The notes beneath the pieces were generated by a model that saw only the letters and a list, made by a program, of their open reading frames with translations, made no database searches and was not told the origin of the DNA. Below are positions 43,315 to 55,911 of a DNA stretch of 64,000 bases, one piece after another. Position numbers and translations under genes: made by a program. This DNA is from Aquisalimonas sp. 2447 (lineage in GTDB: Bacteria; Pseudomonadota; Gammaproteobacteria; Nitrococcales; Aquisalimonadaceae). Location of the stretch: assembly GCF_012044895.1 (NCBI RefSeq), contig NZ_CP050695.1:2448501-2512500 (forward strand), in the 5' to 3' direction. The first letter of the stretch is position 1; every line of letters begins with the position of its first letter.

Positions 43315-44235
43315 TCATTCCATTTCAGCGAAATGCCCTGCCATGAGCAGATTCACCAGCCGGGGCCGTTCCACCACCAGGGCATGGCCGGCGCCGGGAA
43401 CGGTGACGAACTGGCTGTCGGAGATGGCGTCGGCCACATCACGGTTGTCCGCCGGCGGGTACAGACGGTCTTCCTCGGCGGCCACCACCAGGGTCGGGCA
43501 CTGGATACGGGCCAGCTGCGCAAAGGCGTCGCCCTCCACCAGTTCCCGGAAGCTGGTGTCATGCAGCGCCACCTGGCCCTCGGCGAAATCGTCCATGGCC
43601 TCGGCGGCCTCCCGGGTGGCCTTCATACCGGCATTGATGCGGTCGCCGAAACGGCTCAGGAACCCCTCGGAGTAGAGCTCCGGGATCATGCCGTGGAACT
43701 TGGTATGCAGATCTCCCGCCTCGGCCCAGTTGCGCCAGTTGATGACAATGCGCTGCGGCAGGGGGCGGATGCGCCCGGCGGTGGTCATCACCATCAGGCT
43801 GCGGGTCCGTCCCGGGTGACGGGCGGCAAACCGCATGGAAACGAAACCGCCATAGCTGGTGCCCACCAGATGACAGGGGCCCTGGATGCTCAGCACATCC
43901 AGCAGCGCCACCAGATCATCGGCATGGGTGTCGAAGCTCCACGGCCAGGGCCGGGTGAGCTCCGATCGCCACTGGCCGCGATACTCGAACCGCAGGGCAT
44001 TCCACCCCAGGCGATCGGTCACCGCCAGCTGTCGCTCCCAGCCTTCCACGGTAGCCATGATGCCGTTACAGAAAACCACCGTGGGCGCCTCCGGCGCGAC
44101 CTCGCGGTAGTCGTACCAGCACTGGAAGCCATTGGTCTGGACGTAGGGCACGGCAGGCGTTCTCCGGAAACAGCGAAGGATGCCGCCGAGCATGCCTGAG
44201 TCTGTGCCCGGGGCCAACGCTCCGGCGCGGGTCAC
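43315..44235 (-). CDS. Alpha/beta-hydrolase fold protein
   Basis: A 306-residue hydrolase. The nucleophile elbow is GTSYGG, the acid lies in AAEEDRLYPPADN and the histidine in GAGHALVVERP. VVFCNGIMATVEGWERQL supplies the oxyanion-hole region. The substrate class is open (esterase or lyase). The GTG at 44235 overlaps the pppA stop, indicating coupling; an ATG at 44193 is an alternative start. It is last in the type VI operon but need not be functionally part of it. Confidence 0.85.
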   Translation of the reverse strand: MTRAGALAPGTDSGMLGGILRCFRRTPAVPYVQTNGFQCWYDYREVAPEAPTVVFCNGIMATVEGWERQLAVTDRLGWNALRFEYRGQWRSELTRPWPWSFDTHADDLVALLDVLSIQGPCHLVGTSYGGFVSMRFAARHPGRTRSLMVMTTAGRIRPLPQRIVINWRNWAEAGDLHTKFHGMIPELYSEGFLSRFGDRINAGMKATREAAEAMDDFAEGQVALHDTSFRELVEGDAFAQLARIQCPTLVVAAEEDRLYPPADNRDVADAISDSQFVTVPGAGHALVVERPRLVNLLMAGHFAEME

Positions 44236-44894
44236 CCCTGGATATGGACGGTAATACAGCTGACGTTGTCCGGCGCGCCGCGGACCAGGGCCTCCTCCAC
44301 CAGGCGTGCGCAGGCCCGGGTCGGCGGCTCCCGCAACAACAGCTCACCGAGGGTGGTGTCGTTGAGCACCGTGGTGAGACCGTCCGAGCACAGCAGAAAG
44401 ACATCGTCCTGGTACAGGTGCTCGTGGCTGCTCGCCAGTTCCACGGCACTGTCTACGCCAACGGCCCGGGTAAGAGCACCCGTGGAGGGATCGGCGTGGT
44501 CAGCGGTCAGGCGCCGGAGGGTGCCATCACGTAGCAGGTAGACGCGGCTGTCCCCCACCCACAGACAGTGGGCGTTGTCCGCTTCCAGGACCAGCAACGC
44601 CAGCGTGGTGCCGCTGATGTCGCCGTCGGCCTGCGCGGCGATGCTGCGGTTGACCGTCTGCACGGCATCCGCCAGCTGCTGCAGTAAACGCCACCCCTGC
44701 GCCGTATCGGCGGCCGCGTTGAGCGCCTGCGCCAGGGTGGCGCTGGCATCGGCACCACGCGTATGCCCGCCCATGCCATCGGCCACCGCCCACAACCCGG
44801 CATCCGGGCGCTCCACCACGGCATCCTGGTTGTCCCGCCGCACGCAGCCGCGGTGGGTCCGGGCGGCAGACAGCAGCGGCTCCTCGTGGCGCAT
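44232..44894 (-). CDS. pppA: PP2C-type serine/threonine phosphatase (PppA, type VI secretion)
   Basis: A 220-residue metal-dependent phosphatase. Metal and phosphate ligands are in place: RRDNQDA (residues 19-25), VADGMGGH (37-44), SGTTLALLVL, VGDSRVYLLRDG, CSDGL and the final DNVSCI. In the known threonine phosphorylation pathway PppA reverses PpkA phosphorylation of the FHA protein and silences the apparatus; all three partners are encoded in this locus. The start at 44894 lies 4 bp after tagF. Confidence 0.93.
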   Translation of the reverse strand: MRHEEPLLSAARTHRGCVRRDNQDAVVERPDAGLWAVADGMGGHTRGADASATLAQALNAAADTAQGWRLLQQLADAVQTVNRSIAAQADGDISGTTLALLVLEADNAHCLWVGDSRVYLLRDGTLRRLTADHADPSTGALTRAVGVDSAVELASSHEHLYQDDVFLLCSDGLTTVLNDTTLGELLLREPPTRACARLVEEALVRGAPDNVSCITVHIQG

Positions 44895-44898
44895 GACT

Positions 44899-45618
44899 CT
44901 ACTCGCCCTGGCGTGCCAGGGCCCAGCCCCGGCCACGCCACTCGCCGTCCAGGAACGCCGTCAGCTGCCCCGCCGACGGCAGCCCGGGAGTGATCACGAA
45001 GGACTCCTCCACGTAGTCCGAGCCGCTGGTCCACCACAGGCTGTAGCCGCCCAGCAACCGACCCCAGGCATGGTCAAGCAGGCCCATGGCGGCATCCCGG
45101 GGCTCGGTGCCGTCGGCCAGGGACACCACCCGGCCAACACAGTCCGGATTGCCAGCGGTGCGGTACGCCGGCAACGGCTCGAAGTCCGGCAGCGGCAGGC
45201 CCTCCAGCCGCTCCACCAGCTGGCTGTAACGCACGTGCTCGCTGAGAGCAGCCAGGGCCACTTCCTCGGCCGCATCAAACCAGGCTGTATCGGAGAGATA
45301 CGCCGCCCATGGTGCGTGATCACCGGCATGGGCCACGGCCAGTGGAAAGCAGCGGCCGATTTCGTCGATGCTGGGAATCAGTACCCCGACCACAGCCGCG
45401 CCGCCGCACACCCCCGGGCCCAGGGCGAAGCGCCACACCGGGCTGGTGAGATAGACGTTCTGCCAGTCTTCCTGCAGGTGATCCTGGCTCACCCCGATCC
45501 CGGAACGCAGCCAGGCGTGCCAGGTGTCCTGGAAGGCCCGGGGCAGGTGGTGATTCACGAAATCGGGCTGTTGCGGCACCTTGCCGAATAACCCGCAAAG
45601 ATCCTGGCTCTCGCTCAT
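44899..45618 (-). CDS. tagF: Type VI secretion-associated protein TagF (ImpM)
   Basis: A 239-residue protein starting CGLFGKVPQQPDFVNHHLP, the TagF/ImpM N-terminus, with DWQNVYLTSPVWRFAL and the GGYSLWWTSGSDYVEESFVI region near the C-terminus. In Pseudomonas, TagF represses the system post-translationally. ATG 45618 overlaps the tssM stop (ATGA). Confidence 0.92.
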   Translation of the reverse strand: MSESQDLCGLFGKVPQQPDFVNHHLPRAFQDTWHAWLRSGIGVSQDHLQEDWQNVYLTSPVWRFALGPGVCGGAAVVGVLIPSIDEIGRCFPLAVAHAGDHAPWAAYLSDTAWFDAAEEVALAALSEHVRYSQLVERLEGLPLPDFEPLPAYRTAGNPDCVGRVVSLADGTEPRDAAMGLLDHAWGRLLGGYSLWWTSGSDYVEESFVITPGLPSAGQLTAFLDGEWRGRGWALARQGE

Positions 45619-48600
45619 AACGTGTCCGGAACGTGGAAATTGGTCCACAGCTTGCGCCGGAAGGGGTGGTTCGCACTCTCCCAGAGAAGCTCGAAACTGC
45701 CTTCCAGACCGCGGTTGTTGAAGGTCACCAGCGCGCCGTCACCGTTGTCCATGGGCTGCTGACTCGCATACTGGTCCAGGAGCCGGAACAGCCCCCAGCT
45801 CCCGGACTCCCGACGGGTCAGCGGCGAACCCCGACTGACCAGATTGAACACCACGCGGGCGCCGCCCTCGGCGTCGCCGGTCCACTCCACCCGCGTGGTC
45901 CGCACCGGGCCGTGCTGGTAGCTGATCTCCTCCTCCTCCACCTGCAACAGGGCCCGGTTCACGGCGCGGTCCAGTTCGTGGGGGCGGACCAGGAAACTCA
46001 CCGACGGCTCGCTGCCACCATCGAAATACGCCCGCTGGATGTCCTCGACCCGCCGGAAGAACGACAGCGTGCGGTTGGACAGGCCAATGGGGCGCAGCCA
46101 GGCAGTACCGCCGCTGTTCGTGAACGGCTCGAGATAGTCCTCCCGGAAGCTGTCCAGCACGCCGCCGGCCCCGAAGAACTCGGCGAAGTCATCAATGCGT
46201 ACCTCCCGATCGGATTCCGGAGCCACCGGATAGCGACCGGCGATGTTGCGCCGGTAGAAGGGCAGCACATCGTCACGCCAGGCGGTCTGCACATGTTCAC
46301 GGGCGCCGCCGCGGGTGACGGCACGCGCATCGTCCAGAACATCCTCCAGCCAGGCCCGCACTTCCGGGGGTGCATCCGCCAGCGCCCGGCGCAGATCGGC
46401 CATGGCATTGCCGCCGTCACCGCGGCCCTGGCTGGCGACGAATGCCTCCTCCAGGGGATCGTCCGCGTACTCCATCTCCTCGAAATACTCCGCCAGCACG
46501 TCCAGCGCCTCCAGCAGGCGGTCCAGGGGCAACCCCTCCTCGTCCGTCACGTAGTCGTTGAAGCCGCTGAAGGCGTGGGTAATCTCCGCGCCGGGCAGTT
46601 CCACGTCCGGCCCCCCGACACCGTCCGGAACGAAACGCTCCAGCCGCCGGCGCTGATTTCCGGCCAGCTCCTCGCTGGCTGTGTCCGCGAGCTCGCCCGC
46701 CTGCTCGGCGCCCTCCGGCAGCTTTGCCAGGTCGGTGTGCTCGCTCACCGCGTCCAGCAACGCGCGCACCGGTTCATCGCCACTAGCCAGCTTGCGCATG
46801 ACCACGCGGCCATCGGCGGCGGAGTCGAAACGCTTCACGCGCAGATCCCGCAGGTAATCACGCCAGTAGCGCTGATAGTCGTCGAAGTAATGCTGGCGAA
46901 CCCGTTCCACAAGCCCGTCCAGATCCTCGTCGGAGAGCGCCTCGGCGCCGTCGTCACCGTAGATCCAGCGCTCGTCGGCGAGCTGCCTGGCCACGCGCCG
47001 GCTGCGGCTGCTGAACTCCTGGTAAAAGCCCTGGTAGCTGAACAGCCACGGCACGCCGTCATCCAGATCGGCGTCGCTGGCGCGCTGGAACAGAGCCGGC
47101 GCGGTATTGCCCAGCACCAGCCCCACGGTGAACTCACGGCTGTCGTTGGCAATGATGTCGTTCTTGATACGCCGGTAGACCCGGCCATCCAGGGACGCCT
47201 CGGCGAGTCGCTCGCGGGCATCGGCGACCAACTCCTCGTCCATGGGCGGTGGTGGCAACTCCGCATTCAGTGCAACCTCGGCGTGACGCGCCAGGGACTC
47301 GCGGGTGCCGGCATGACGCTCACCCGGCAACGCCTCGCGCCACAACAGCGCCGCCCACTCCAGGAATTCATCCTCCAGCAGGTGTTCACGGTGGTAGAGC
47401 ATCAGGTAGAAGCGCAGGGCTTCGTAGAGCTGCGCCTCGTCCTCCAGGCCCGGATCGGTGGCATCGCGCAGCAGCACATCCAGACGTGGCAGGAAGATGC
47501 GCTCGAAGGCCTGCCGATAGGTCTGCTCTGCCTGTGCGCCGATCCGTTGCCCCTGGAAGAGCCCGAAGCGCAGCCGCAGGGGCCGGTCACTGGCAGCCTG
47601 CTCCACGCCCCAGGGCAACTCGCGGACGGCGTCCAGGCCGCGCGCAAGGGCAGCCCAGTCCCGCGCGCCGGCCTCCGCTGACCGCTCCAGCGGCTCCGCT
47701 GCCGCCTCGATGGCCTCCTGCGCCTCGGCCAGCTCGGCCCTGTTGCCGTGATAGCTCAAGGACCAGGCGACGGCGCTGCCGGCGAACGCCAGTACCACAC
47801 TGACCGCCAGCCCGGCACGCAGCCAGCGGAAACGCCGTTCGGCCCGGATATCCGCCGCGGCCAGACCGGACTCCGGGAGCACCACCCCGCGCAGCAGGCG
47901 GCTGATGAAATAGCCCCGCGGGGAACCCCCGCTGCGCGCGGTGTCCGCCGGCGCAAACAGCTCCGGCGGCAGAACGCCGGTGACCCACTGGGCGGCACCG
48001 CTGTCCTGGGTGCCACTGATGAAGTACACCCCGCGCAACAGGGCCGGCTGCTCGAAGCGGTTGGCGGCAAAGATCTCGCCCAGAAAACCGGCCAGCGGCT
48101 CGGTGAGCCCGAGCATCTGCTGCGGGAACTCATAAATCAGCCGCCGACGGCCCGGATTGTGCTCCGTGTTGAGCCGGGCCAGCACACCCCCGTCCACCCG
48201 CTCGATCAGGCCGCGGAAGCGATGGCGGAACTCCTCCAGGCGGTCCTCGCCGGGTTTGCGACCGCGGCGGAACGGGAACGTCAGGCCCAGGGGCTGCTCG
48301 CGCTGTTCTTCATCCAGGTCCGCGAAAAAGGGCTCGAATCCGGCGACGCGGTCACACTTGGTGAACACCACGTAAACGGGCAGCTCCATGCCGAGATGGC
48401 TGTTCAACTCCTGGATGCGGCGTTTGATGGCGGCGGTGTGCAGCGACTGCTGGGTGGGCGTCTGGCGAACCACGTCCAGCAGACTGACGGTGACGATGAC
48501 GCCGTTCAGCGGCCGCTTCGGCCGGCTGCGCCGCAGCATGCCGAGAAACCCCCGCCACGCCTCACCCTCGATGCCTCGCGGTTCATCCTGGGCGGTATAG

Positions 48601-49184
48601 CGGCCGGCGGTGTCCAGGAACACGGCCTCGTCGGTGAACCACCAGTCGCAGTAGCGGGTGCCGCCGGCGCCCTGCACGGCATTGTCACCGATCTGGCTCT
48701 CCAGCGGGAAATGCAGCCCGGACTGGCGCAACATGGTGGTTTTGCCGGAGCCCGGGGCACCGATCAGCACATACCAGGGTAATTCGTAGAGCCGACGGCC
48801 GCGGGACAGGCGCGCCGTCTGCAGGGTGCCCAGGGCGCTCTTCAGGCGTTCGGCGAGGATTTCCTGCTCGGCGTCCGCTTCGGCGTTACGCTGTTCGTCC
48901 TGCTGGGCGGTCTCGGCGTTGTCCGCCAGGTCCTTGCTCAATGCGTCGTTGTCCGCCTTCTCCGAGGCCCGGCCGCGCAGGTTGTTCAACCCCCACAGCA
49001 ACAGCAGCACCAGAATGGTGACCACCCGTACGGTGGGCGAGGCCAAAGGGCGGTATTCCGCCACGGCGGTCAGCGGGCCGGCGAACCAGATCAACAGCGC
49101 CACCGCGATCACTCCGATCAGCGCCAGCACCCAGCCCCGGGTCAGAAACCTGAATACTCTCCTGAACATATCCGTTGCCGTCAC
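45615..49184 (-). CDS. tssM: Type VI secretion membrane complex protein TssM (IcmF)
   Basis: A protein of up to 1189 residues forming the inner-membrane part of the TssJLM trans-envelope complex. Membrane segments lie at about 17-40 and 51-67, with a third near 465-485 that sends the large C-terminal part into the periplasm. A Walker A motif GAPGSGKT (142-149) and a TKCD nucleotide-binding motif are present, so NTP binding is likely. The first ATG is at 49169, five codons inside the GTG at 49184; the ribosome site does not clearly decide. Followed directly by tagF. Confidence 0.95.
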   Translation of the reverse strand: MTATDMFRRVFRFLTRGWVLALIGVIAVALLIWFAGPLTAVAEYRPLASPTVRVVTILVLLLLWGLNNLRGRASEKADNDALSKDLADNAETAQQDEQRNAEADAEQEILAERLKSALGTLQTARLSRGRRLYELPWYVLIGAPGSGKTTMLRQSGLHFPLESQIGDNAVQGAGGTRYCDWWFTDEAVFLDTAGRYTAQDEPRGIEGEAWRGFLGMLRRSRPKRPLNGVIVTVSLLDVVRQTPTQQSLHTAAIKRRIQELNSHLGMELPVYVVFTKCDRVAGFEPFFADLDEEQREQPLGLTFPFRRGRKPGEDRLEEFRHRFRGLIERVDGGVLARLNTEHNPGRRRLIYEFPQQMLGLTEPLAGFLGEIFAANRFEQPALLRGVYFISGTQDSGAAQWVTGVLPPELFAPADTARSGGSPRGYFISRLLRGVVLPESGLAAADIRAERRFRWLRAGLAVSVVLAFAGSAVAWSLSYHGNRAELAEAQEAIEAAAEPLERSAEAGARDWAALARGLDAVRELPWGVEQAASDRPLRLRFGLFQGQRIGAQAEQTYRQAFERIFLPRLDVLLRDATDPGLEDEAQLYEALRFYLMLYHREHLLEDEFLEWAALLWREALPGERHAGTRESLARHAEVALNAELPPPPMDEELVADARERLAEASLDGRVYRRIKNDIIANDSREFTVGLVLGNTAPALFQRASDADLDDGVPWLFSYQGFYQEFSSRSRRVARQLADERWIYGDDGAEALSDEDLDGLVERVRQHYFDDYQRYWRDYLRDLRVKRFDSAADGRVVMRKLASGDEPVRALLDAVSEHTDLAKLPEGAEQAGELADTASEELAGNQRRRLERFVPDGVGGPDVELPGAEITHAFSGFNDYVTDEEGLPLDRLLEALDVLAEYFEEMEYADDPLEEAFVASQGRGDGGNAMADLRRALADAPPEVRAWLEDVLDDARAVTRGGAREHVQTAWRDDVLPFYRRNIAGRYPVAPESDREVRIDDFAEFFGAGGVLDSFREDYLEPFTNSGGTAWLRPIGLSNRTLSFFRRVEDIQRAYFDGGSEPSVSFLVRPHELDRAVNRALLQVEEEEISYQHGPVRTTRVEWTGDAEGGARVVFNLVSRGSPLTRRESGSWGLFRLLDQYASQQPMDNGDGALVTFNNRGLEGSFELLWESANHPFRRKLWTNFHVPDTL

Positions 49185-49230
49185 TCCGCGGCAGAAGACG
49201 CCGCAATTCGTCCGTGAATGAAGGGCTTGT

Positions 49231-49520
49231 TCATTGTGTCCTTATCTCGATGGTCACGCGCCGGTTGCGGGCGCGGCCTTCGGCAGTGTCATTGCCGGCC
49301 ACCGGCTCCGTCGCCCCGCGCCCCTCCGGCAACAGGCGGCCGGACAGACTGGCCCGCTCATCGAGCTGCCGGGCGACGCTGTTGGCCCGCTCCAGCGACA
49401 GGTGCCAGTTGGAGGGGAAGCGGGTGGTGCGGATGGCCTGACTGTCGGTGTGGCCAGCCACCACGATGCGCCCTTCCACCGCTTCCAGGGCCCGTGCCAG
49501 TTTGCCCAGCAGCGGCTCAT
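49231..49520 (-). pseudogene. tssL: OmpA/Pal-like C-terminal domain of TssL, out of frame
   Basis: This stretch encodes KLARALEAVEGRIVVAGHTDSQ followed by an NxxLSLxRANSV-type helix and GRARNRRVTIEIRTQ, a complete peptidoglycan-binding OmpA domain as found at the C-terminus of evolved TssL proteins. It is one frame away from the DotU-like part of tssL, which ends at a TGA at 49517-49519. No convincing independent start or ribosome site precedes it. Removing one base from the C-run at 49521-49528 would join the two parts. Confidence 0.8.
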
Positions 49521-50551
49521 GGGGAGGGATTCACCGTTGCGCTGGCAGAGTCGAAAAGGTCCTCGCTCTCCAGCACCACCATTGTGCGCGAGCCTGTCTC
49601 CTGCACGGCGACCAGGCCCTGATCGATCTCCGGTGCCATGAGTTCCCGCAGGCGCCCGGCCAGCGCACCGTCCGGCTCTGCTGACGCCTCCTGCACCTCC
49701 GTCGGCGGCACCAGCCCGGCAAGGCTGGCGCCGACGGTGTCGGCATGACGATTGAGATCGAACAGAAGCAGCGAGTAGAGCGCGAAGGCCGCCAGGCCAA
49801 GAACGCTTGCCAGCACCCAGACCGGCAGAAAACTGTGCAGCCGATGCACCACCCCCGCCGCCGGCTCCACCTCCGGCGACAGAGCATCCCGCCTGCGGTC
49901 ACGGGTGTGATGGAGCACGCCGTAGAGGGACTGGCGAATCTCCTCAAGCCGCACGGCGCCGTCGGCATCCACGCGATAGCGCCCCTTGAGCCCCAGCGAC
50001 AGGCACAGATAGGCCAGTTCCAGGAAATCGTGATCACGTCGCGCGCTTTCCAGCTCGCGGTCGATCATGCGGAACACCTGCTCACCGCCGTCAGTCTCGT
50101 TGTGGAAGGCGCGCAGCGCTGTCTTCTGGCTCCAGTTGCTCTGTTCACCCCAGGGACTGTTGAGCACGGTCTCGTCGATGAACGAGCACAGCAGGTAGCT
50201 CGCCCGCTCCACCCGGGACGCAGAGAAGCCGGCCTCCCGCGCACGCTCCTGGAACCGCCGCACGGCGTCCATCACCTGCTGATGCAGCCCCGCTTCACCC
50301 ACGGGATCCTGCAACTGCCCGAGTTGTACCGTCAGCGACAGCAGCGGCGTGGCCAGCCCGGCCAACGCACCGTCGCGAAGGGTGGCAACATCACGCAGGC
50401 GCACGGGCTCGCGGCGCGCCCGGCCGCGTAGCACGGTGGCGTCGTTCCCCGCCGCAGACGAGGGCGCCGGGCGGGGCCGTATACCGGCACCACCGCCGCT
50501 GCCCCTGGAGCCACCCGGCCGCGGGCGAATGATGGTTCTGTCGTCGTCCAT
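49517..50551 (-). CDS. tssL: Type VI secretion protein TssL (DotU/ImpK), ends at a frameshift
   Basis: A 344-residue product with a proline/glycine-rich N-terminal region (1-45), a cytoplasmic DotU domain (about 60-230, with ASYLLCSFIDETVLNSPWG) and one membrane segment (VWVLASVLGLAAFALYSLLLF, about 243-263). It then runs into the start of an OmpA domain (VLESEDLFDSASATVN) and stops at once after NPSP. The expected OmpA remainder continues in another frame (49231-49520). The DotU part, sufficient for the complex in TssLs without an OmpA domain, is intact. ATG 50551 was taken as start; a TTG at 50575 is possible. Confidence 0.88.
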   Translation of the reverse strand: MDDDRTIIRPRPGGSRGSGGGAGIRPRPAPSSAAGNDATVLRGRARREPVRLRDVATLRDGALAGLATPLLSLTVQLGQLQDPVGEAGLHQQVMDAVRRFQERAREAGFSASRVERASYLLCSFIDETVLNSPWGEQSNWSQKTALRAFHNETDGGEQVFRMIDRELESARRDHDFLELAYLCLSLGLKGRYRVDADGAVRLEEIRQSLYGVLHHTRDRRRDALSPEVEPAAGVVHRLHSFLPVWVLASVLGLAAFALYSLLLFDLNRHADTVGASLAGLVPPTEVQEASAEPDGALAGRLRELMAPEIDQGLVAVQETGSRTMVVLESEDLFDSASATVNPSP

Positions 50552-50593
50552 GATCGTGCCGCTACGCTCCGTCAACCCGTGACCGTTGCCCGG

Positions 50594-51934
50594 TCAGTCG
50601 CGAATGGCCCACATATCCAGCTTCAGGCCCGGCATTTCGTCGGCCACATGCAGGGCAAAGCCGGCGGAGTTCTCGAGCTGTTGCCAATGGTCCGAATGAC
50701 TGTCCAGCTCGAAGTAGACGCTGCCAGCGTGGTAGGGGATCTCCCGGGGTGCCATGGGCAACGCAGTGATGCCGATGCCGGGCAGGTGATTGTTCACCAG
50801 ATCCCGGATGGTCTCCACGGTGCCCACCTTCATGGCCACCTCGAGCTGCCTGCGCAGGGTGTCGGTGGGCATTTCCGCCCGGGCCGCCACCACGAACCGC
50901 GCCGATTTCAACAGCTCCCGGTCCGGCAGCCGTGCCACGCGGATGCCGTACTGCCGCTCTTCCACCGGCAGCGACAGCGCCGTCTGCTCCAGCACCGTGC
51001 TCAGCGCGCGGCCGAGGACATCGTGAAGGACGCTGAAACAGCCGTAGAGGTCATCGTGGTTGTAACGCGGCAGCCGGGCAGGCCGACGCTCTTCCGTCGT
51101 AAATGTGGCCAGTTCACCGGCCAGACCCGCGAATTCCGTGTACAGCCGCTCCGGGTGCACCAGGGCCAGTTCGCACAGGTGGCGCAGGCGCAGTTCATAG
51201 CGGTTGGTGAGCTGCAGCAACAGGAAGTCGGCAATGGCCGAGGTCCCGCCAGCCTTGCCGGATTCGTTGAAGCGCAGGGCCAGGGCTTCCCCGCGCTGGT
51301 GCAGGCTACCAAGCACACCATCGACGCCATCACGGAGCATGCGGCTGGCGTTGATGTCCAGCACCGGCGGCACGAACTCCGGGTCCAGTATGAGCGCCCC
51401 CTCCGGCGTCACCTCACGGACGCGGGCCACCGGCAGCACCGAGTAACCGCCCAGTTCCTCGTGCTCGTAGAGCAACGAGAAGTTCAGCGCGCCGGTCTCC
51501 ACCGGTTCCGCCTGGCCACCGTCCGCGGCATAGTCGAAGACGTCCGTCATGCGCAGGCGGTAGCGGGCAACGCGGTCGGGGCCACCCGCGTCGGTGGTAT
51601 CTACGAAGCGTACGCCGTGCTGGTAGTTGGGCAGTGCCAGGTAGATGCGCTCGCCGCGGCTCGCCTCGCCCACCTGCAGCGGCGACGGCGCCCGCGCTCC
51701 GTCGGGAATAGTGAACGGCGTACCGTCCGGCATGATGCCGCGAGCCGCCGACAGGGAGAGCCGGCCTTCGGCCAGCGCGCCCTCGTCCAGGGTGAGTTCA
51801 TGGAACCCCCGTACATGCGGCCGGATCGCGGCCGCGCGCGACTCCAGGCGCTCTTCGAAATGACGCTCCTGCTGCTGGAAGTGCTGCGGAAACAGATACT
51901 GACTCTCGAGCCAGAGCGTCTTGTGCTCGGACAT
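50594..51934 (-). CDS. tssK: Type VI secretion baseplate protein TssK (ImpJ/VasE)
   Basis: A 446-residue protein opening LWLESQYLFPQHFQQQERHFE, the TssK N-terminal shell domain, and ending with AGFALHVADEMPGLKLDMWAIRD. TssK links the baseplate to the TssJLM membrane complex. It is the only baseplate protein encoded in the window. Starts 20 bp after tssJ. Confidence 0.95.
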   Translation of the reverse strand: MSEHKTLWLESQYLFPQHFQQQERHFEERLESRAAAIRPHVRGFHELTLDEGALAEGRLSLSAARGIMPDGTPFTIPDGARAPSPLQVGEASRGERIYLALPNYQHGVRFVDTTDAGGPDRVARYRLRMTDVFDYAADGGQAEPVETGALNFSLLYEHEELGGYSVLPVARVREVTPEGALILDPEFVPPVLDINASRMLRDGVDGVLGSLHQRGEALALRFNESGKAGGTSAIADFLLLQLTNRYELRLRHLCELALVHPERLYTEFAGLAGELATFTTEERRPARLPRYNHDDLYGCFSVLHDVLGRALSTVLEQTALSLPVEERQYGIRVARLPDRELLKSARFVVAARAEMPTDTLRRQLEVAMKVGTVETIRDLVNNHLPGIGITALPMAPREIPYHAGSVYFELDSHSDHWQQLENSAGFALHVADEMPGLKLDMWAIRD

Positions 51935-51954
51935 GGGGTTCGGCTCCCTCGGTG

Positions 51955-52452
51955 TTATGCGTCGTCCTCATCCGCGCGGCGTTCCAGGGCAAGCCCGGTG
52001 CGCCCGACGCGAACGTTCTGCTCCGACCAGTTCCCCTCCACGGGATTGACCAGCCGCCAGCGGGCGTCGTCGATCTGCCGATAGGCGGCAACCACACCGA
52101 CGTAGGCACCGTCATCGTCGAGATCGATCCGATGAGTGACCGACTCACCGGGCTGGAGCATGAACTCGGCACTGGCGAGGAGTTCATCGCTGAGCACCAC
52201 GTCGGCGTTATCGAAGGCAGCGTCGAAATCCAGGTTATCGAAGGTGTCCCGGCGCTTGAGTTCATACACCTTCAGCGCCACCGGCGAAGGCCGCCCGCTG
52301 TCGTCCGGATTGGCCTGTTCCGAGGCGGTGATGGTGACATCGGTGTAGCGCGGGAACGCATCGCCAAACCACGCGCAACCCGACACCATGACAGCCAGCC
52401 CCCCGCCGACAGCGGCGGCAAGGATCAGCCCCGGCGGTCGCCGTGCATTCAT
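51955..52452 (-). CDS. tssJ: Type VI secretion outer-membrane lipoprotein TssJ
   Basis: A 165-residue lipoprotein with lipobox VSGC (acylated C26), followed by a transthyretin-like beta domain typical of TssJ (VALKVYELKRRDTFDNLDFDAAF, GESVTHRIDLDDDGAYVGVVAAYR). It anchors TssM to the outer membrane. The start at 52452, overlapping the FHA gene by four bases, has AGGAGAGAGG before it. The C-terminus is acidic (RADEDDA). Confidence 0.93.
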   Translation of the reverse strand: MNARRPPGLILAAAVGGGLAVMVSGCAWFGDAFPRYTDVTITASEQANPDDSGRPSPVALKVYELKRRDTFDNLDFDAAFDNADVVLSDELLASAEFMLQPGESVTHRIDLDDDGAYVGVVAAYRQIDDARWRLVNPVEGNWSEQNVRVGRTGLALERRADEDDA

Positions 52453-53756
52453 GCCTCTCTCCTGTTCTGACGTCCGGACAGCGCGCGCCGCACCGCGCCG
52501 CGGGTCAGTCGCGCGGCCAGGCGGCCGTTGCGGGTGCGGTACCGCTGGAACCAGCGGCGGTAAAGCCGCCACTGCACGGCGGCCGGGAAAAGACGCAGAC
52601 TGGTGCGGGCCAGCAGTCGCTGCACCCGCCCCGGTGCGGGCCGTCGCCTGGCACGGCGGGCGATTCGCTCGGGGCCGAGCTGGTCGATGGCCTGAATAAC
52701 CTGGGGAAGCAGCGCCTCAATCAGCCGGGTGGACACCCCGGGGAAACGCGCCGAATCCCGCTGAATTGCCCGCAGGAACCGGGCACGGGAACCGCCATGG
52801 TCATCGTCGAGCAGCAGCGAGACGGCGGCATCCACGCCCTTCTGGTCCCCGGGGAGGAACAGCTCCTTCTCCGTCACCCGGGCACTGGGCAGATAGCGGC
52901 GCTCCAGGCGGTCATGCTCACGGCGCAGGGTGAGCATGGTGCGCAGGCTGACGCGCAGGGCGGCGCCGACGGCGTAGGCCTGTTCCGGTGAGAGGTGGCG
53001 CGGCTGATCGTCAGGATTGGTAATGCCGAGCCCGTTCCACAGCTCCCGGACTGCCCGGGGTTCCAGGGCATCGAACTGGCGGTTTACCGACACCGCCGGC
53101 GAGCCGGTCGCGGCAGTGTCGTACCCACTGAGTTCGAGATCCCAGTCTTCGGGAATGTTTGCCGCCGGGGGCGTGAAGGCGTCACGAGTGGTGCCGAGAT
53201 CCGTCTTGCGCTGTTTCACCGAAGGCAGATCCAGCGACTCCGCCAGCCCGGCCGTCGATGCAGACTCGGCAATCTCGGCCTGGTCCGGTTCTCCCGGGGT
53301 CGCCTTCGCTGCAGGCTCTGGTGTGGGAGTGGCGCCGGTGGACACGCCGGCGTCGGTCGGAAACGGCACCGATCCGCCGGACTTGGCTTCATCGTCGCCG
53401 TTCTCGAGCTGGATGACGAAATCACCCATTCGCACCCGGTCACCGGGGCCGATGGCTGCCTTACCGCCCGCACCCAGTGGCTCAGTGGCATCGTTGAGGT
53501 ACACGCCATTGGAGCTGGCGTCGTAGAGCTGGAAGCTGTCGTTCTCGAACAGAACGACCGCGTGTCGCCTGGATATCAGGCGATTGGGGCAGTGAAGCTG
53601 CCAGTCGCACTCCTCGCCGCGACCGATGATACCGCCGGCCTCATCCAGCACCACGGTCATGACCTGACCGGGCTGAATGGCGTCACTTGCGACCAGACTG
53701 AGCCTGAGGTGCATCCCTTCACCCGTTGGAATTCCGTGCTCGAATTCCGCCTCCAT
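52449..53756 (-). CDS. tagH: Type VI secretion FHA-domain protein (TagH/Fha)
   Basis: A 435-residue protein with an N-terminal FHA domain (about 31-117) carrying the phosphothreonine-binding residues IGRGEEC, SRRH (62-65) and SSNG (81-84). An acidic, low-complexity linker (130-215) follows, then the C-terminal TagH domain (RELWNGLGITNPDDQPRHLS and RRRYLPSARVTEKELF-like region). It is the expected substrate of the divergent PpkA kinase and first gene of the operon. The start may be 53756 or the in-frame ATG at 53714. Confidence 0.9.
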   Translation of the reverse strand: MEAEFEHGIPTGEGMHLRLSLVASDAIQPGQVMTVVLDEAGGIIGRGEECDWQLHCPNRLISRRHAVVLFENDSFQLYDASSNGVYLNDATEPLGAGGKAAIGPGDRVRMGDFVIQLENGDDEAKSGGSVPFPTDAGVSTGATPTPEPAAKATPGEPDQAEIAESASTAGLAESLDLPSVKQRKTDLGTTRDAFTPPAANIPEDWDLELSGYDTAATGSPAVSVNRQFDALEPRAVRELWNGLGITNPDDQPRHLSPEQAYAVGAALRVSLRTMLTLRREHDRLERRYLPSARVTEKELFLPGDQKGVDAAVSLLLDDDHGGSRARFLRAIQRDSARFPGVSTRLIEALLPQVIQAIDQLGPERIARRARRRPAPGRVQRLLARTSLRLFPAAVQWRLYRRWFQRYRTRNGRLAARLTRGAVRRALSGRQNRREA

Positions 53757-53899
53757 CCCTAAGAGGCGAGCTATTCACTGATTCCTGCGCTGGACCAGCC
53801 CCGACTCCGTCGCCTCGGGCCACTGCTGGGCCGACTGACAGCCCCGAGTCCGCCTGTTAGCATCCAGCGACTGGACAAGGAACAGCCCGGAGCCTGCGC

Positions 53900-54814
53900 A
53901 TGGAACGCGGAGAAGATTATCACGATTCCCGACCGCCGGAAAAACCCCTTGCGCAAGCCTGCCAGACACCCCCCGTCGGCGCCCTGCTGAAGCAGCGTTT
54001 CCTGCTCACCCGGCAGGTGGCGCAGGGCGGCACCGCAACGGTCTACCACGCCCGCGACAGGCTCAAGGAGCGCGATGCCGGCGCACCTGTAGAGGTGGGC
54101 GTCAAGTTCTTCCACAAGACCAGCGCGAACATCCCCGCACTCACCATGGCCGCGCGGGAAGCCACCCTGGCGCGAACGGTTCGGCACCCGGGCATCATCC
54201 ACATTCACGACATGCACGCGGTGGGGGATCGCGCCTGCCTGACCATGGAGTGGATCCGCGGCGAGACCCTGGCCGAACACCTGGCGCGAATGCCGGGTGG
54301 ACGCCTGCCGCCGGAACAAGCCATCCAGCTCGCCATGAGCGTCGCCGATACCCTGGCAGCCTGCCACAAGGCCGGCATCGCCCACGGTGACGTCAAACCC
54401 GCCAACATCCTCCTTGCCGACGACGGCACCCGCCTGGTGGATTTCACCACCGCGCACCAGTTCGCGGCCAGTGCCGGGCCACTGGCGGCGCTGGCCTCGG
54501 AAGCCATCGCTGGCTACTCCCGCCTGTACGCCAGCCCCCGTGTCCTGCAGGCCGCCCTGCCTTTGCCTTGCGACGACATTCACGGCCTGGCGGTGGTGAC
54601 CTTTCAGATGCTCGAGGGCCGCACCCCATTCGCGCCGCACAGCAGCCTGACCGCACGCGAACAGGGTCTGACTCCCGGACGCCCCGCCAGTCTGGGCCGG
54701 CTACGGTGGCGGGTGCTTCGCCGGGGGTTCGCGGCCGATGCGCGGATGGCGCCTGATGACGTCGTGGCTTTCGCCCGGGCCTTGAATCATCCTCTCCGTG
54801 GGCTGGGGCAATAG
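53900..54814 (+). CDS. ppkA: Serine/threonine protein kinase (PpkA-like, type VI secretion)
   Basis: A 304-residue Hanks-type kinase consisting of the catalytic domain only, without a membrane segment or extracytoplasmic domain. It has the glycine loop VAQGGTATVYHA (40-51), lysine K69 (VGVKFF), and catalytic loop HGDVKPANIL with D164, K166 and N169. The metal-binding DFG is replaced by DFT (181-183). It is divergent from the FHA gene with 143 bp between. Full-length PpkA of Pseudomonas has a periplasmic sensor domain that is missing here. Confidence 0.9.
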   Translation: MERGEDYHDSRPPEKPLAQACQTPPVGALLKQRFLLTRQVAQGGTATVYHARDRLKERDAGAPVEVGVKFFHKTSANIPALTMAAREATLARTVRHPGIIHIHDMHAVGDRACLTMEWIRGETLAEHLARMPGGRLPPEQAIQLAMSVADTLAACHKAGIAHGDVKPANILLADDGTRLVDFTTAHQFAASAGPLAALASEAIAGYSRLYASPRVLQAALPLPCDDIHGLAVVTFQMLEGRTPFAPHSSLTAREQGLTPGRPASLGRLRWRVLRRGFAADARMAPDDVVAFARALNHPLRGLGQ

Positions 54815-54833: not shown

Positions 54834-55562
54834 TCAGAGGCCGAGCGCGGCACGTTCAAACACGAAGTGTTCGTCTTCAGCGGCCAGGGCCCTCGTCGCC
54901 ACCACCTGGATCTGCCCCATATGCAGGTTCCAGGACTCCATCACGGCCGGCTCGCGGCTGGTAAAAGCGGCGGGATCGAGCAAGGACAGGTTGGCGCCGC
55001 GATCCGGGTCCCTGGCCGACTCACTGCGCAGCACGGCGATGCCCACCTCCCGCGCCGTTACCGCGAGTTCCTGTGTGGCCGCGTAACTGGCGGGGTCGGT
55101 CCACCGCGCACGGTCCGCATCCAGCGGGGGCCGGGTCAGATCCAGGACCTTGCGGGCACGGTAACCGGCCTGGAACACCGTCAGCCGCTCCTCCGGCCGC
55201 GGCGTCCGCGTGCCCCGGGATTGCAGGAAAAAGCGCAGGCGATGATAGGCGAACTCGGCCAGGCCGGTACGCCGCTTTTCGGCGCCGTAGAACACGCCCC
55301 AGGGCGCACCCGGGGGCCGGAAGCGGCTGCCGTTGGGCTTCGGCGGATGGTAGCGGAACGGTGTTTTCAGCAGGTAGTGGAGATCCCGGGCGGCTGGGGG
55401 AAACGGCGGCTTGGTCTCTTCCAGCAGCTCTTCCAGCCGCTGCTGATCGGCCAGCGTTCGGGTAATGCGCCGCGTGCTGGCACGGTGCTGCGCCTCCACG
55501 ACGCGCCACACCTGACCGTGGCGCCAGTGCGCCTCACGCGACAGCGCGGCTGCTGTCCACAT
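54834..55562 (-). CDS. RES-domain toxin (predicted NAD+-degrading)
   Basis: A 242-residue protein with the RES domain: an early arginine in WRHGQVWRVVEAQHRAS, the glutamate in FYGAEKRRTGLAEFAYHRLRFF and a downstream serine-containing region. Characterised RES toxins (MbcT, Res of P. putida) degrade NAD+. The coding region overlaps the antitoxin gene by 29 bp and is the second gene, the usual Xre-RES order. Confidence 0.87.
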   Translation of the reverse strand: MWTAAALSREAHWRHGQVWRVVEAQHRASTRRITRTLADQQRLEELLEETKPPFPPAARDLHYLLKTPFRYHPPKPNGSRFRPPGAPWGVFYGAEKRRTGLAEFAYHRLRFFLQSRGTRTPRPEERLTVFQAGYRARKVLDLTRPPLDADRARWTDPASYAATQELAVTAREVGIAVLRSESARDPDRGANLSLLDPAAFTSREPAVMESWNLHMGQIQVVATRALAAEDEHFVFERAALGL

Positions 55563-55911
55563 ACTGCAACGTGCTGATCAGACCCTCGATGCTGCGAATC
55601 CGCGCCTTGGGCGCATCCGCCAGATCATCGTTGGGATTGCGCATCCACTGCCGCACCACCTCCTCGTCCCCGGCGCAGATGGCATCAAGGCTGCGGAACA
55701 GACGGATGATGTACAGCGCCAGCTCCCACTCCTTCTTCGCCGGATCGAGCTGGAAGCGCCCGCCCTTCATGCGCTCCACCGAGCGCCGGCTAAGACCGAG
55801 CACGTCAGCGAGTTCCTGATTCGTGAGCCCGAGGGCCCGGCTCGCCTGGTAGACGACGTCCGTCACCAGGCGGCGGTCTTCGGAAGTCTGGTTGGCGAGA
55901 TCCGGTTTCAT
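55534..55911 (-). CDS. Xre/MbcA/ParS-family antitoxin of the RES system
   Basis: A 125-residue protein with an Xre-type helix-turn-helix (LGLTNQELADVLGLSRRSVERMK, about 28-50) and a C-terminal DUF2384-type toxin-binding domain (LALYIIRLFRSLDAICAGDEEVVRQWMRNPNDDL). It neutralises the RES toxin and normally represses its own operon. The upstream 358-bp gap contains its promoter region. Confidence 0.88.
   Translation of the reverse strand: MKPDLANQTSEDRRLVTDVVYQASRALGLTNQELADVLGLSRRSVERMKGGRFQLDPAKKEWELALYIIRLFRSLDAICAGDEEVVRQWMRNPNDDLADAPKARIRSIEGLISTLQYVDSSRAVA

Follow-up and report, generated by a model that had tools for sequence, protein, structure and literature searches.

A one-base frame change inside the OmpA-like domain of tssL in Aquisalimonas sp. 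2447, probably a recent mutation or a sequencing error

The tssL gene of Aquisalimonas sp. 2447, which encodes a structural component of the type VI protein-injection apparatus, is interrupted by a one-base change of frame within its OmpA-like peptidoglycan-binding domain. The gene lies in the window, by which we mean the whole stretch of 64,000 nucleotides that was analysed. The break has the appearance of a recent mutation or of a sequencing error, rather than of a new regulatory device. We favor an ordinary frame change by one base, of recent date, in the only tssL copy of the sequenced strain, and give this reading, in which the mutation would be a true one, a probability of about 0.5. An isolated read error is about as likely as a recent mutation.

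Position of the break in tssL

The upstream frame of tssL (49517-50551, minus strand) starts at 50551 and encodes a product of 344 aa, which ends in ...FDSASATVNPSP at a TGA stop codon (49519-49517). It is composed of the DotU domain (PF09850, 1.1e-57, residues 63-262), a membrane stretch recognized by eye, a linker and the first part of the OmpA-like domain. The second frame, on the minus strand at 49524-49234, is open for 97 codons with no internal stop and encodes the rest of this domain (PF00691, 3.4e-14, profile 14-98). The two frames differ by one base net. The first-pass annotation had described a DotU part followed by an OmpA domain in another frame, with a one-base shift between them, and both statements are confirmed here. 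The junction itself (49516-49531, minus strand) consists of four C followed by ATGA, at a place where the relatives are continuous. Its plus-strand letters at 49521-49528, read from the minus strand, are GGGGAGGG, as had been given together with the correct coordinates, but the epithet slippery is weak, as G/C runs of four to six bases number 470 in the window (370 of four, 85 of five and 15 of six).

Both pieces match a single protein, the TssL of relative G001 (43% over 370 columns and 68% over 95), with an overlap of 2 query residues. The mismatches at codon positions 1/2/3 amount to 113/102/175 in the upstream piece and 20/19/57 in the downstream piece. Since both pieces match one relative protein and both display an excess of third-position mismatches, the frame break is more than a chance arrangement of open frames.

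The motif FDSASATVNPS precedes the cut, which falls within the OmpA-like domain. The upstream product scores 200.6 bits against TIGR03349 (cut-off 89.95), as expected of the DotU domain of a long-form TssL. The profile of the long form, TIGR03350, has 137 positions and is divided between the two frames: residues 300-342 of the upstream product cover profile 1-43 (26.7 bits), and residues 3-94 of the downstream piece cover profile 46-137 (121.9 bits). Each piece alone stays under the cut-off of 139.8 bits, whereas the intact relatives G001 and G011 pass it with single matches to profile 1-137 and 2-137, respectively. The OmpA-type part is thus not contained in the same open frame as DotU. Because profile 1-43 falls in the upstream frame, the start of the OmpA-like domain lies on the upstream side of the break, and the earlier placement of the break exactly before the peptidoglycan-binding domain does not hold; the profile is split at 43/46 of 137, inside the domain.

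We also considered a split gene with a separate OmpA protein, and rejected it. The starts in the downstream frame within 49400-49600 are GTG codons at 49479, 49464 and 49461, inside the domain, and no signal sequence is visible by eye at these candidate starts.

Relatives and the age of the break

The relatives were compared with one genome per species, and no second genome of the same species was found among them. The upstream product matches 18 of 40 genomes, its own included, at E <= 0.001. As near relatives we took the ten best loci besides its own (nine genomes, one with two copies) and the Stagnihabitans tardus record, and all 11 have one open frame of 419-593 residues that contains both parts. 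Eight weaker loci (L015-L022) were left out of the junction count, as they are uninformative there and lack an OmpA part in the DNA examined. Seven of them match the DotU part, with frames of 195-544 aa, while L021 gives no match at E 0.01. An internal stop is listed in two of the weaker matches, G022 and G004.

In a class sample of 185 genomes, 26, again with the own genome included, match the upstream product at E <= 1e-20. Nine matches besides its own reach at least query position 340 and have open frames of 417-490 aa, as compared to 358 here; G014 is counted both among these nine long forms and among the 11 near relatives. The remaining 18 matches end at or before query position 280, with open frames of 244-319 aa. 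The shift is shared by none of the 11 near relatives with both parts and, as judged by open-frame length, by none of the nine long forms of the class sample. A class search with TIGR03350 matched 356 of 370 genomes, 47 of them over the cut-off among the matches listed; shorter OmpA-domain proteins are included in these figures, which makes them unsuited to a count of split genes.

The downstream piece retains 64-68% identity to the three nearest relatives. Its dN is 0.27 against G001, 0.25 against G011 and 0.32 against G014, and the values among these three intact genes are 0.26, 0.36 and 0.26. No decay is seen in this piece, with a dN like that of the intact relatives and no internal stop. 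An old break would be expected to give a longer branch. Given that substitution in the downstream part is not accelerated relative to the intact genes, the break is, as judged from these rates, probably recent on the scale of the group's divergence, or else would be absent from the organism, as an artefact. The synonymous sites are near saturation, and the age of the break can therefore be stated only roughly.

Sequencing error, recoding and phase variation

Alternatively, a sequencing or assembly error in a short G/C run may have gone uncorrected, and the strain itself would then have an intact long-form TssL; we rate this a little short of even odds. A single base at a homopolymer run is all that is seen to be wrong, and the constraint on the downstream domain equals that in the intact relatives. 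Moreover, homopolymer-length errors are described as the commonest residual type in long-read-only bacterial assemblies (PMC8812927). On the other hand, the run at the junction is short, and no other clear frameshift was found in 251,338 homology-covered bases of the assembly, although runs of at least four are very common.

The latter result comes from a frameshift survey in which 861,002 sampled bases of this genome, window included, were compared with proteins encoded in samples of G001, G036 and G038; homology covered more than half the length of 233 of the 651 ORFs. Fourteen places were flagged, 13 of which were tested by the codon position of their mismatches. The fourteenth (L043 12067) was rejected as an antisense artefact, lying over what we take, from the translations, to be riboflavin genes. 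The tssL gene is the only flagged place with a third-position excess in both pieces. Five others have it in one piece only (L168 5395, L170 1844, L043 12749, L046 15649 and L039 13054); the second piece of L168 5395 has 23 codons and is too short to judge, and the flag at L046 15649 derives from a G001 reference that is itself broken. The survey set out from tssL, and without it the sample gives an unbiased count of zero clear frameshifts.

In G001, the same survey covered 298,498 bases and flagged five places. Four were tested (L150 was left out), and one proved to be a clear frameshift; the 28-codon piece in L144 is too short to judge. The clear case, near 4992 of L146 on the minus strand, is a gene that occupies one frame in L046 and L111 and is split over two there, with a third-position excess in both pieces against L046. 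The enlarged survey also flagged two candidate places in G038 and one in G036. The frameshift background of this assembly is like that of G001, and a generally poor assembly is therefore unlikely; one isolated error is still compatible with this background.

Two other survey designs were dropped. Ab initio frame segmentation was too noisy, as it flagged 25 of 147 same-strand switches here, 28 of 107 in G001 and 4 of 32 in G036. A first tblastn survey without composition correction returned 45 flags here, 40 in G001, 48 in G038 and 3 in G036, which we took as mostly shadow-frame matches; a stricter run left two places in this genome, tssL and the antisense artefact in L043. An OmpA fragment elsewhere in the genome was considered as a sign of more frameshifts, and was rejected as a remnant without its 5' part. 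This 5'-truncated OmpA-domain remnant (G000:C1:1757136-1757336; L029 1501-1701) is an 87-aa open stretch, apparently from a decayed gene.

It is very unlikely that the break is a site of programmed recoding, at which some ribosomes or RNA polymerases shift frame at CCC-TCC-CCA-TGA to yield a short and a long TssL. The downstream frame is conserved, as recoding would have it, and a U after CCC makes for a shift-prone context. A type VI precedent has been described in Citrobacter rodentium tssM1, in which both forms are needed and transcriptional frameshifting at a run of 11 A was shown by experiment (PMC4256274). However, the tssL run is four C, and a long homopolymer of the tssM1 type is absent at the junction. 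The pair TCC-CCA is rarer than expected in the sampled ORFs (5 vs 13.1), possibly a sign of avoidance, but TCC-CCG is likewise below expectation (48 vs 97.1), and CCC-TCC is not avoided, occurring 60 times vs 65.6 expected. A stimulatory fold is absent from the 90 bases downstream: the RNA folds at -36.4 kcal/mol, against a shuffle mean of -37.89 kcal/mol (z +0.41), and 138 of 200 shuffles are at least as stable. No Shine-Dalgarno-like stimulator is visible by eye upstream of the junction. Furthermore, the shift occurs in no relative examined, and the break cuts a domain. In the type VI literature searched, the titles and abstract openings among the matches listed include no recoded or phase-variable tssL. 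More improbable still is a lineage-specific recoding site that would produce forms with and without the peptidoglycan anchor, their ratio tuning the seating of the membrane complex in the wall.

Least probable of all is phase variation, in which the run length would change at a high rate and switch the long-form TssL on and off: the one-base change does adjoin a homopolymer run, but this tract of four C on the coding strand is short, equal or longer runs are everywhere (2289 coding-strand runs of at least four C in the 651 sampled ORFs), a run of four C also occurs in the junction stretch of three of the 11 relatives (L007, L008 and L014), which stay in frame, and no tract longer than four C is seen in this stretch in any of the 11. 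Thus, sequencing error and recent mutation remain from the four causes that had been proposed for the break, whereas phase variation and ribosomal frameshifting find no support, with a tract of four C, an unshared shift, no fold and a break inside a domain.

The type VI system and known counterparts

The other type VI genes that were looked up appear whole. All those next to tssL lie on the minus strand: a PP2C-type phosphatase gene of the cluster (44232-44936; PF00481, with NF033484 below its cut-off), tagF (44899-45648; PF09867, TIGR03373), an intact tssM (45615-49184; TIGR03348, 1115 bits, profile 2-1167 of 1168), an intact tssK (50594-51934; PF05936, profile 1-429 of 429), tssJ (51955-52572; PF12790) and a tagH-like FHA-domain gene (52449-53756; PF00498, with TIGR03354 at 109.8 bits, below the cut-off of 120.25). 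Within tssM, the ATG at 49169 is the counterpart of the MFRR start of G001 and G011. A search for another lesion at the border of tssL and tssM found none. A 17-codon open stretch at 49180-49236, running from the ATGA that overlaps the end of the downstream tssL frame, lies ahead of tssM and is probably due to chance. A protein kinase domain gene (53900-54814, plus strand; PF00069) adjoins the cluster. Beyond it, on the minus strand, the gene for a RES-domain protein (54834-55562; PF08808) overlaps a small upstream ORF (55534-55911), which may, we presume, encode its antitoxin partner. The undamaged look of the other type VI genes fits a sequencing error as well as it fits a mutation.

The genome is a single contig of 3,972,634 bases, in which the type VI genes form two clusters about 170 kb apart (window 44232-54814 and G000:C1:2672494-2684802), with a VgrG-type gene, the one such match, at a third place (3,598,132). 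The second cluster contains Hcp, a ClpV-like ATPase, TssG, TssF, TssE, ImpE, TssC, TssB and TssA. No second DotU gene was found in the genome, the tssL match being the only one, and the broken copy is therefore not a spare. The search for OmpA-type domains listed nine places in the genome, eight of them over the cut-off, and tssL is the only one of the nine near either type VI cluster; hence, no OmpA-type TagL substitute is evident.

If the break is a recent mutation, tssL as written would yield a 344-residue TssL with the cytoplasmic DotU part and the membrane stretch, in which the OmpA-like domain breaks off after its first part. With the peptidoglycan anchor missing, the type VI membrane complex would be expected to be impaired, with a probable defect in secretion. 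The type VI system of enteroaggregative E. coli is described as dependent on the binding of peptidoglycan by TagL, an essential function there (PMC8253398), and loss of the domain may be expected, on these grounds, to harm the system here as well. The strain would then probably be impaired in type VI secretion despite its complete-looking clusters, which bears on genome-based trait prediction. If the break is an error, one record would be corrected. General interest would attach only to the unlikely recoding reading.

Among known counterparts, Citrobacter rodentium tssM1 resembles the present case as an interrupted type VI membrane-complex gene with its remainder in another frame, but it is a different gene, with 11 A as compared to four C here, and its recoding has been demonstrated experimentally (PMC4256274). 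Classical Vibrio cholerae is known for frameshift lesions in type VI genes, and the likeness lies in small indels within type VI clusters; there, several lesions, re-sequenced clusters and activity tests are reported, whereas here there is one unconfirmed lesion (PMC8578542). The early end of the written product recalls the short-form TssL without an OmpA part, which is described as working together with TagL in some systems (PMC8253398). However, the short-form matches of the class sample end ahead of the OmpA part, and the product here includes its first part. The closest counterpart is the long form, the 'specialized TssL' with a fused peptidoglycan-binding domain (PMC8253398; TIGR03350 and TIGR03349), which has the same order of DotU, membrane stretch and OmpA-type part. 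Both halves of this tssL match the families of the long form, but its chain, as written, ends within the OmpA-like domain.
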